Translations under genes and position numbers: made by a program
Shown here: piece by piece, positions 37,903 through 58,373 of the stretch
Numbering within the stretch: the first letter of the stretch is position 1
Layout: every line of letters starts with the position of its first letter
Source: Candidatus Acetatifactor stercoripullorum
GTDB taxonomy: Bacteria > Bacillota > Clostridia > Lachnospirales > Lachnospiraceae
Length of the DNA: 64,000 bases
Reading direction: 5' to 3'
Assembly: GCA_019114005.1 (NCBI GenBank)
Contig: DXGH01000073.1
Coordinates: 62,001 to 126,000 of the forward strand
Notes under the pieces: model-generated
The model's input: only the letters and a program-made list of their open reading frames with translations
What the model was told of the DNA's origin: nothing
Database searches by the model: none

Positions 37903-38883
37903 GTGGGAGAGGTCCTTTCACAAAATGAGATAGATAATCTGCTTGCAGCCTTATCGGCCGGAGAGCTGGACGTAGATCAGATGCAGAGCAATGAAGAGAA
38001 GCATGTGAAGAATTATGATTTCAGCCGACCCACGAAGTTTTCAAAGGAGCATCTGCGGACGCTGGAAATCATATTCGAGCATTACAGCCGGCTGGTTTCT
38101 ACGAATCTTCCTGTCTACCTGCGGAAAAATGTCCAGGTGGCGGTGGCAAGCTCAGAGACAGTTACCTTCAGCGAGTTTACCAATGCTTTGTCTAATCCCG
38201 TTATTTTGGGAATCATTAATTTTGCTCCGCTGAATGGAACGGTTATCATAGACCTGGCAACAAACCTTGGCTACGCCATGCTCGACCGTATGCTGGGAGG
38301 CAGCGGCGTACCATTGGAGAAAAGCAGGGAATTTTCAGAGATTGAGCTTACTATTTTACAGAAACTGATGATTATGTTTACCCAGCTTCTCAGGGAGCCC
38401 TGGAAAAATGTGATTGATGTGAATCCTGTTTTAAACCGGATGGAAACAAATCCACAGTTTGCCCAGGTGATCGCTCCCAATGATATGATAGCGCTGATCA
38501 CGCTTAACATGAAGATCGGGGATGTGGAGGGCTTTATGAATATATGCCTGCCTTTCTTTACCCTGGAAGACATCATGGATAAGCTGAATACAAAATACTG
38601 GTTTTCTACAATGCAGGAGAACCGGGATGAAAATTATGAGGAATATATCGAATCGCTGATCCGAAGGGTAGATGTACCCATTAAGGCAGTACTCGGAAAA
38701 AGCCTAATTTCAGTGAATGATTTCCTGAATCTTCAGGTTGGAGACTGCATCCGCCTGGATTCAAAGATTGATAGCGATATGGATATTTATGTAGGAAATA
38801 TCAGAAAGTTTACCGCATTGCCCGGAACCGATAAAGAATCTTATGCTGTCCGGATTACATCGGTAATCAGAGAGGAGGAGTAA
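37903..38883 (+). CDS. fliM: Flagellar motor switch protein FliM
   Basis: '[17 protein letters not shown]'; '[29 protein letters not shown]'; 'MLDRMLGG'. Confidence 0.97.
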
Positions 38884-38885
38884 GC

Positions 38886-40367
38886 ATGGATGGAATGCTG
38901 TCTCAGGATGAGATAAGTGCGCTGCTAAATGGAATGGATTTATCCGCCGATGGCGCAGGTGATTTGGACAGTACAGAAAACCTGCCGAAAGGGGATGCGG
39001 CAGGAGACATAAGCAATGAAAGTACAGCCGGCAGCACAGCTTCCGGAGAGGGAGAGCTGCTGACAGATGTGGAAAAGGATGCAATTGGGGAGGTTGCCAA
39101 TATCAGTATGGGTTCCTCTGCCACCACCCTTTATTCTCTTGTGAATAAAAAGGTGAATATCACTACCCCGGTGGTTACCCTGGCTACATGGAATACGCTG
39201 CTGGGAGATTATGAAAAGCCATGTGTATTTATCCAGATTAAATATACCAAGGGGCTTGACGGCATGAATATTCTCGTGCTGAAGGAGCACGACGTGAAGG
39301 TGATTGCCGACCTGATGATGGGCGGTGACGGAACCAATACGGACGGTGAACTGGGTGAGCTGCATTTGAGCGCCATCTCTGAGGCTATGAATCAGATGAT
39401 GGGTTCTGCTGCCACATCTCTTTCCACGATGCTGCAGACGGTGATTGATATCAGCCCGCCAGAGAGCACTCTGGTGGATTTATCCGAATTCCAAAACGGT
39501 GGGGATGTTTCGCCGTTTCTGGGCGGCACCTTCGTTAAAATTGCTTTTCGCATGCAGATTGATGATCTGGTGGATAGTACCATTATACAGTTATACCCCA
39601 TTGAATTTGCCCGTAAGGTGGTGGAAACCTTCTTTAACACCCAATCAGTAGGCGCTTCGGAAAGCGTTTCCGCTCCGGAACAGGAGATGAATTCACAGCA
39701 GATGCCTTCGTCAGGAGATTCTCAGGGCCAGACGGGATATGGTAATGGGATGGAAAGCGGAATGAATTCCAATGGAATAAATTCCCATGGAATGAATTCC
39801 ATGGCAATGAACCAGATGGACATGAATCCAATGAATATGAACCCCATGGGAACAAACCAGATGAATATGGGGCAGATGGGCATGGGCCAGATGGCAATGA
39901 ACGGGAACCCAATGGGAATGAACCAGATGGGCATGAATCAACTGAATATGAACCCCATGGGAACAAACCAGATGAATATGGGGCAGATGGGCATGAACAT
40001 GAATGCAGGCGGATTCAATCAACCCATGGGGATGAGTCAGATGGGGGCGGTTCCCCAGATGAATCAGCAGAATGTTAATGTTCAGCCGGCCCAGTTTCAG
40101 AATTTTTCCAGCAATGTAAATAGTGTTCCAGGCCAGGAAAATATCGGCCTGATCATGGATGTCCCTCTTGAGGTTACAGTTGAATTGGGACGTACCACTA
40201 AGTCGATTTCCGAGATACTTGATTTCGCGCCTGGCACGATCATTGAGCTTGACCGTATTGCAGGCGAACCTATAGACGTTTTGGTGAACGGCAAATTTGT
40301 TGCAAAGGGAGAAGTTGTTGTAATCGAAGAAAGCTTTGGTGTGAGAGTAACCGAAATTATCAAATAG
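38886..40367 (+). CDS. fliY: Flagellar motor switch phosphatase FliY (FliN with CheC-like domain, Met-rich linker)
   Basis: '[14 protein letters not shown]'; two CheC-type sites DAIGEVAN and SAISEAMN; FliN C-term '[66 protein letters not shown]'. Confidence 0.96.
39750..40061 (+). repeat. Met/Asn/Gln/Gly-rich tandem repeat tract within fliY
   Basis: 31 Met in 104 codons; 53-bp exact direct repeat at 39832-39884 and 39943-39995 (111-bp period). Confidence 0.92.
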
Positions 40368-40379
40368 GAGGATAGTTAA

Positions 40380-40742
40380 ATGGCAAAGAATATTTTGATT
40401 TGTGATGACGCGGCATTCATGAGGATGATGATTAAGGACATTTTGACGAAAAACGGCTACAATGTCGCAGGAGAAGCGGAAAACGGGATTAAGGCTGTGG
40501 AGAAGTATAAGGAGGTTTCTCCCGACCTTGTGCTTATGGATATCACTATGCCTGAGATGGATGGTATTCAGGCGCTGAAGGAGATCAAAAAGCAGGATGC
40601 CGGCGCAAAGGTCATTATGTGTTCCGCCATGGGACAGCAGGCGATGGTGATTGAGTCCATTCAGGCTGGTGCAAAGGATTTTATTGTAAAACCTTTTCAG
40701 GCAGAGCGTGTGATTGAAGCCGTTAAAAAGGTAGTGGGCTGA
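40380..40742 (+). CDS. cheY: Chemotaxis response regulator CheY
   Basis: 'NILICDDAAFMRMMIKDILTKNGYNVAGEAENGIKAVEKYKEVSPDLVLMDITMPEMDG'; single REC domain. Confidence 0.95.
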   Translation: MAKNILICDDAAFMRMMIKDILTKNGYNVAGEAENGIKAVEKYKEVSPDLVLMDITMPEMDGIQALKEIKKQDAGAKVIMCSAMGQQAMVIESIQAGAKDFIVKPFQAERVIEAVKKVVG

Positions 40743-54049: not shown

Positions 54050-54313
54050 ATGAACAGAAGATATTTGCCTTTGATACTGATGCTGGCAGCGGGAGCCGTT
54101 ACCTGCATAGTTACATTTATAAGGGATTTTTCAATTTTGGGGAAGCTGGGAGCGCTGCTTTTTGTTTTGGTTGTATTTTATTTTTTGGGCAGCGTTTTAA
54201 AATGGACCTTAGATTATTTTGACAGACAAAACCAGGCGGCAGCGGAGGAAAAGGAAGAGGGAGAGAGCGGGGGCGAGGAACTGAAAGCGCAGAGCAAAGA
54301 GGGAGAGCAATAA
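54050..54313 (+). CDS. Small membrane protein between cheD and sigD, unknown function
   Basis: 87 aa; two hydrophobic segments, acidic C-term; collinear and tightly packed. Confidence 0.72.
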   Translation: MNRRYLPLILMLAAGAVTCIVTFIRDFSILGKLGALLFVLVVFYFLGSVLKWTLDYFDRQNQAAAEEKEEGESGGEELKAQSKEGEQ

Positions 54314-57770: not shown

Positions 57771-58373
57771 ATGGCTGCAGAACAGCCCTGCACTACGGAG
57801 TTGAGAATTGAGATGAGGTTGAAATATTATTTGCGGGGATTGGGGATCGGAATGGTGGCTGCCGCAGTGCTGATGGGGGCCGCCTCAGGAAGGGGTCAGA
57901 CGCTCAGTGATGCGCAGATCAGGGAACGTGCGGCAGAGCTTGGGATGGTGGAAAGCACCCCGGCCGTTTTGTCCGATCTGGAAACGCCCCAGTCAGAAAC
58001 GCTGCCGGAGGCACTGCCAGAGGCAGGGCAGGAATCCCGGGAAACCATGGAGGAGCCGCCGGGGACGCAGGCACTGCAGCCAGAGGAGACAGAAACGCTG
58101 CAGTCAGAGGCAGCAGAGGCGCAGCAGCCGGAGGAAACAGAGGCACTGCAGCCAGAGGCCGCGCCGGAAGTGTCTGTGACCATACAGCCGGGCGACAGCT
58201 CGGTGACGGTGAGCAGAATGCTGGCCGAGGCGGGACTTGTAGAGGACGCAGAGGCTTTCGACAGGTATCTTTGCGACAACGGCTATTCCAAATCTCTTCG
58301 GATCGGCACCTATCAGATAGAACCGGGAACCGGGGAGGAAGAAATTGCGGAAATTATCACCGGAAAACAGTAA
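57771..58373 (+). CDS. Short MltG/YceG-like protein with Glu/Gln/Ala-rich linker
   Basis: N-terminal TM; C-term 'VTIQPGDSSVTVSRMLAEAGLVEDAEAFDRYLCDNGYSKSLRIGTYQIEPGTGEEEIAEIITGK' resembles the YceG N-terminal LysM-like part only. Confidence 0.68.
   Translation: MAAEQPCTTELRIEMRLKYYLRGLGIGMVAAAVLMGAASGRGQTLSDAQIRERAAELGMVESTPAVLSDLETPQSETLPEALPEAGQESRETMEEPPGTQALQPEETETLQSEAAEAQQPEETEALQPEAAPEVSVTIQPGDSSVTVSRMLAEAGLVEDAEAFDRYLCDNGYSKSLRIGTYQIEPGTGEEEIAEIITGKQ

Follow-up and report, generated by a model that had tools for sequence, protein, structure and literature searches.

Among the described components of the flagellar switch, the FliY proteins of B. subtilis and T. maritima are closest to the protein considered here, and share with it a FliM-like N-terminal peptide, a CheC domain carrying both active sites, a disordered linker, a QPxxF motif, a FliN domain and the operon setting. 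From known biology, we take FliY to be a cytoplasmic protein of the C-ring. FliY linkers elsewhere in the phylum are mostly 46-114 aa long and charged, with 0-8% Met, whereas those of Lachnospiraceae are 51-197 aa long, nearly uncharged and mostly contain 10-29% Met. The Spa33/SctQ-type C-ring proteins also end in a FliN-type domain, and a separate FliN gene is absent here; they differ by an internally translated C-terminal fragment (an internal translation start has been reported for Spa33), while no internal ribosome-binding signal was detected in the FliY linker. Most of the known Met-rich low-complexity regions are eukaryotic. That of yeast Pbp1/ataxin-2 is likewise disordered, Met-rich and aromatic-poor, but it belongs to a eukaryotic, condensate-forming, RNA-related protein with Msr present, whereas the genome analysed here lacks MsrA and MsrB. 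Copper/silver proteins of the CTR1, SilE and PcoC type have the same MxM and MxxM spacings, but are placed at the cell surface or in the periplasm and usually have His or Cys, whereas the FliY linker is cytoplasmic, without Cys and nearly free of His. In the open-access literature, judged from titles and abstracts, no description of a Met-rich region in FliY or the flagellar switch was found.

In the present study, fliY was located at 38886..40367 on the plus strand of the window, which is the whole stretch of 64,000 nucleotides that was analysed; the features given below lie on the same strand unless otherwise mentioned. The encoded protein of 493 aa, consisting of an N-terminal peptide, CheC phosphatase domain, linker and FliN domain, reached a whole-protein score of 443 bits against PRK08119 (NCBIfam equivalog, cut-off 218) and gave Pfam matches to CheC and FliMN_C. 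The protein is FliY, with a Met-rich linker as a variant specific to the family. The N-terminal peptide (38886..38936) resembles the start of FliM in sequence and has a predicted helix at residues 7-14; its positions L5, Q7, E9, I10, A12 and L13 are invariant in an alignment of 40 FliY members. It is followed by a first disordered segment (38937..39056), which is acidic and without Met (pLDDT about 40-45). The CheC-type CheY-P phosphatase domain (Pfam CheC; residues 58-254; 39057..39647) contains both active-site motifs, D65/E69/N72/P95 and S162/E166/N169/P191-192; the motif residues (DxxxExxN / SxxxExxN ... P) are invariant across the 40 aligned FliYs, and phosphatase activity is predicted on this basis. 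This domain matched the structure of T. maritima FliY (4hyn) with an E-value of 5.8e-39, and the other solved structural relatives are T. maritima FliN (1o6a/1yab) and Salmonella FliN (8umd). The linker of 156 aa, with 33 Met (residues 253-408; 39642..40109), is predicted to be disordered. Within it lies a conserved motif (residues 396-407; 40071..40106), recognized by alignment and common to the phylum, which directly precedes the FliN (SpoA) domain (residues 419-492; 40140..40361; FliMN_C match). The consensus of this motif is (V/I)N(V/I)QPAQFQ(N/S)F, with F404 invariant and P401 and F407 almost invariant in the 40-member alignment; Phe was replaced in 0-1% of linker comparisons, and the Phe residues of the motif are almost fixed.

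The gene is adjoined by fliM upstream (37903..38883) and by a cheY-like single-domain response regulator downstream (40380..40742), and the flagellar-chemotaxis cluster around it in the window includes fliG, fliH, fliI, fliK, flhA, flhF, cheA, cheB, cheC and cheD. In the whole genome, FliMN_C domains are confined to FliM and FliY and there is no separate fliN gene; thus, FliN domains are supplied by FliY alone. Elsewhere in the window, an 87-aa ORF without Pfam match (54050-54310) is flanked by cheD and a sigma factor gene, and a 24-bp tandem repeat of about four copies (58069-58158) is located within the ORF 57771-58370, which has a weak YceG-like match.

A sequence-only reading of this DNA had described a Met-rich tandem-repeat tract between the CheC and FliN domains of FliY at 39750-40061, with 31 Met in 104 residues accompanied by Asn, Gln, Gly and Pro. 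Translation of these positions (FliY residues 289-392) confirmed the description exactly (31 Met, 21 Asn, 17 Gly, 11 Gln and 6 Pro), and the placement between the two domains and the repeat character were verified by PRK08119 and Pfam and by Tandem Repeats Finder, which reported 15- and 30-bp arrays of imperfect units. These bounds fall short of the full linker (about 39642-40109), which ends in the conserved pre-FliN motif. A DNA pattern for MxMxxMxM had nine matches in the 3.07 Mb genome, six of them in the FliY tract, and the reversed control had none; the Met-rich tract is unique within the genome. On the minus strand, all three frames are open over the tract (39634-40022) because of its composition, and the minus-strand ORFs 39634-39966, 39711-40022 and 39722-39934 were set aside as a by-product of it. 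The structure was predicted with AlphaFold2 on a 40-sequence alignment. Residues of about 256-428 were modelled without secondary structure (pLDDT about 40-50), the CheC domain was confident, and a FliN-like fold beyond about residue 428 had moderate confidence (50-72).

The composition changes along the linkers of the family. In the first third, next to CheC, Ala, Pro and Glu dominate; Met then climbs to 30-37% near the FliN domain, together with Gln, Gly, Pro and Asn, and in this Met-rich part Glu, Lys and Asp drop to about zero. Leu, Ile and Val together account for 2.2% of the linkers, His for 0.08% and Cys for 0.0%. The Met residues are not spaced at random: gaps of two make up 34% (20% expected) and gaps of three 26% (15% expected), while direct MM pairs are depleted. 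The number of Met increases with linker length, with a slope of 0.35 Met per additional residue. The first disordered segment of FliY serves as a Met-poor internal control (family mean 1.1% Met), and the mean for 219 other low-hydrophobic segments encoded by neighbouring genes is 2.2% Met. Among 895 ORFs from 80 relatives and the window, stretches with at least 10 Met per 40 aa were found in FliY linkers only. By these two surveys, the explanation that disordered or flagellar proteins of these genomes are Met-rich in general was rejected.

The comparison was extended to relatives, with family membership of the loci assigned by database labels and tree clade. Every linker of the first 107 relatives was Met-bearing (9-29% Met; 51-197 aa), and the repeat units vary by species but are all Met-rich, MGMPQ, GMNPMMNQM, PMQGM and MGMNPQM among them. 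A Met content of 10% or more is reached by 153/167 linkers in Lachnospiraceae, a family of gut-type anaerobes (median 21.5%). The corresponding figures are 3/47 for other families of the order (median 4.3%), 1/48 for other orders of the class (median 1.7%) and 0/41 for the remainder of the phylum (median 1.4%). The Met enrichment looked for by the sequence-only reading across species is therefore family-wide, and the relatives with non-Met linkers that it associated with neutral expansion did not appear as the pattern within the family. Anaerobic life alone was rejected as the cause of Met-richness, since the linkers of the other orders of the class are Met-poor. The Lachnospiraceae FliYs form one clade in the tree (support 99) with few losses of Met-richness, 13 family members having fallen below 10% Met; in a second tree, 157 family FliYs and one other member of the order form a clade with support 77. 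L333, from another family of the same order, has a 113-aa linker with 19% Met and is placed far from this clade. By its tree position, its Met-richness is an independent gain, so that Met-richness arose at least twice. Some family genomes also carry a second, diverged FliY type (L241, L247, L251 and L246), in which the linker consists of Met and Gln without Gly or Pro (MMQMQMMQQMMQQMQ) and looks helical; this is possibly a separate gain of Met.

Selection on the linker was examined at the codon level in 23 independent close pairs, for which the alignment took no account of the encoded amino acids. Of the fourfold sites in the linker, 39% differ, while the divergence per nonsynonymous site was 0.013 for Met, 0.027 for Gln, 0.051 for Gly, 0.054 for Pro, 0.063 for Asn, 0.105 for Ala and 0.197 for Ser. 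Because repeats may slide in alignments, the comparison was repeated on gap-free anchored stretches, which gave 0.32 for fourfold sites, 0.023 for Met and 0.031 for Gln. Sliding was thus rejected as the source of Met conservation, though Gln comes close to Met in this result. Overall, the divergence at fourfold sites exceeds that of Met codons per nonsynonymous site in the same linkers by a factor of about 14-30. Between repeat copies within one linker, 6.7% of the Met-codon sites and 41.5% of the fourfold sites differ, the Met value being the lower one in 119 linkers and the higher one in 11. These comparisons are strong, yet partly dependent on phylogeny; they show that the constraint falls on Met and Gln, not on Met alone. 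Since the constraint on Gln is almost as strong as that on Met, selection may act on the overall make-up of the linker and not on thioether chemistry. Single-base replacements of Met numbered 14, too few to show a preference for hydrophobic residues. Taking together the family-wide enrichment, the slow divergence of Met codons, the gain of Met with length and the Met-poor other segment, we conclude from sequence comparison that a Met-rich, nearly uncharged make-up is selectively maintained across Lachnospiraceae. The 14/167 family linkers below 10% Met (as low as 1-2%) indicate that FliY can function without a high Met content.

Several explanations may be considered for these findings. The linker could be an inert spacer, in which slippage drives the repeats, any flexible uncharged sequence suffices and Met is inherited from a PQMGM-like ancestral unit. 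The repeat arrays, the large length differences between close species, the growth of longer linkers by addition of Met-rich units and the working of other families of the class with Met-poor linkers all agree with this. It conflicts with the divergence of synonymous sites, which is 6 to 30 times that of Met codons in repeat copies and between species, with units that differ by species and yet are all Met-rich, with the Met-poor other disordered segment of FliY and with the separate 19% Met gain in L333. The synonymous-site tests reject neutral repeat expansion as a sufficient explanation, and we consider the inert spacer rather unlikely, although it is the first of the alternatives in our ranking. 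The non-random Met gaps of two to three and the constraint on Met and Gln would also suit a docking site with many weak contacts to a partner at the base of the ring (for example FliH/FliI, CheY, CheD or FlhF), and FliN-type domains dock FliH, according to work cited within PMC6613710. The Met-rich part has no motif common to all species, its commonest 5-mers occurring in 55-59/158, and a search of the flagellar flanks yielded no Met-rich partner protein; docking is therefore given a low probability. The in-frame ATG codons might instead be internal translation starts giving a free FliN domain, since the genome has no separate fliN gene and T. maritima FliY also gives rise to a shorter FliN*, for which internal initiation is the probable origin (PMC4832279). 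The suspected start in T. maritima is a Val codon, for which a Met-rich linker is unnecessary. Shine-Dalgarno strength in the linkers was -5.5 against -5.7 in codon-shuffled controls and, near the FliN domain, -5.7 against -5.9, whereas the true start is far stronger (-11.7). Internal starts in linkers were rejected by this comparison with shuffled controls, and we regard this explanation as highly improbable.

The sequence-only reading had proposed that the linker acts as a redox sensor, a metal sensor or a flexible tether, and of these only the tether withstood the analysis. In a reversible redox sensor, oxidation of Met would disperse or extend the linker, and methionine sulfoxide reductases would reset it. 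In composition, the linker is similar to the Met-rich low-complexity region of Pbp1, the condensates of which dissolve when Met is oxidized and form again with Msr (PMC8394241). MsrA (PF01625) and MsrB (PF01641), however, are absent from the present genome (99.99% complete) in a search of these two families, for which the controls were positive. Relatives were surveyed for both enzymes as group samples. Within the genus, MsrA occurs in 5/49 genomes and MsrB in 0/49; three of the five MsrA carriers have no FliY match. The Met content of FliY in the family is alike with and without MsrA (12.2% and 13.2%, p=0.82; compared by genus), and the sampled other orders of the class carry Met-poor linkers. 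Judged from gene content, the absence of MsrA and MsrB removes the usual resetting enzymes and weakens the proposal, although one-way oxidation or another reductase, such as MsrC or a molybdenum-type enzyme, would be compatible with it; we consider it very unlikely. A linker that binds Cu(I)/Ag(I) and links metal stress to motility would explain the over-represented MxM and MxxM spacings, but the linkers contain no Cys and only 0.08% His, and FliY is located in the cytoplasm at the C-ring. Known copper/silver proteins of the Met type as a rule also contain His or Cys and function in extracytoplasmic locations, and Cu(I) is bound far tighter by cytoplasmic thiols than by thioethers. Copper sensing was found to be the least probable of all the explanations.

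The best reading, which we hold tentatively and slightly short of an even chance, is a disordered tether in which Met residues act as weak stickers in a dense, multi-copy brush. The flexible-tether part is strong, as modelled: the region of residues 256-428 has low pLDDT and no predicted secondary structure, and the linker length varies widely in the family. The tether would join the CheC (CheY-P phosphatase) domain to the ring-forming FliN domain and would have two parts, a Pro/Ala/Glu-rich stretch by CheC and then a nearly uncharged stretch with 30-37% Met by FliN. As FliM:FliN is near 1:3 in other bacteria (PMC4832279; PMC10128058), the number of FliY linkers that crowd at the base of the ring may be large, perhaps as high as about 100. 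The sticker mechanism is what we infer. Met side chains, being hydrophobic, flexible and unbranched, would allow hydrophobic contact while adding neither beta-branching nor charge, so that a weakly cohesive, non-aggregating brush appears the likeliest role. Such a brush would keep the phosphatase domains close to the ring and set their reach to CheY-P. The Met-rich low-complexity sequence of yeast Pbp1 is able to self-associate (PMC8394241), which may be taken as an analogy only for stickers in FliY.

Overall, the Met-rich linker is a real and unusual finding, while the sensor idea is weakened. It provides a clear bacterial case in which selection keeps the amino-acid composition, and not the sequence, of a disordered linker family-wide in a well-understood machine. 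The role of Met versus other residues in a disordered tether within a crowded ring is thereby made testable.
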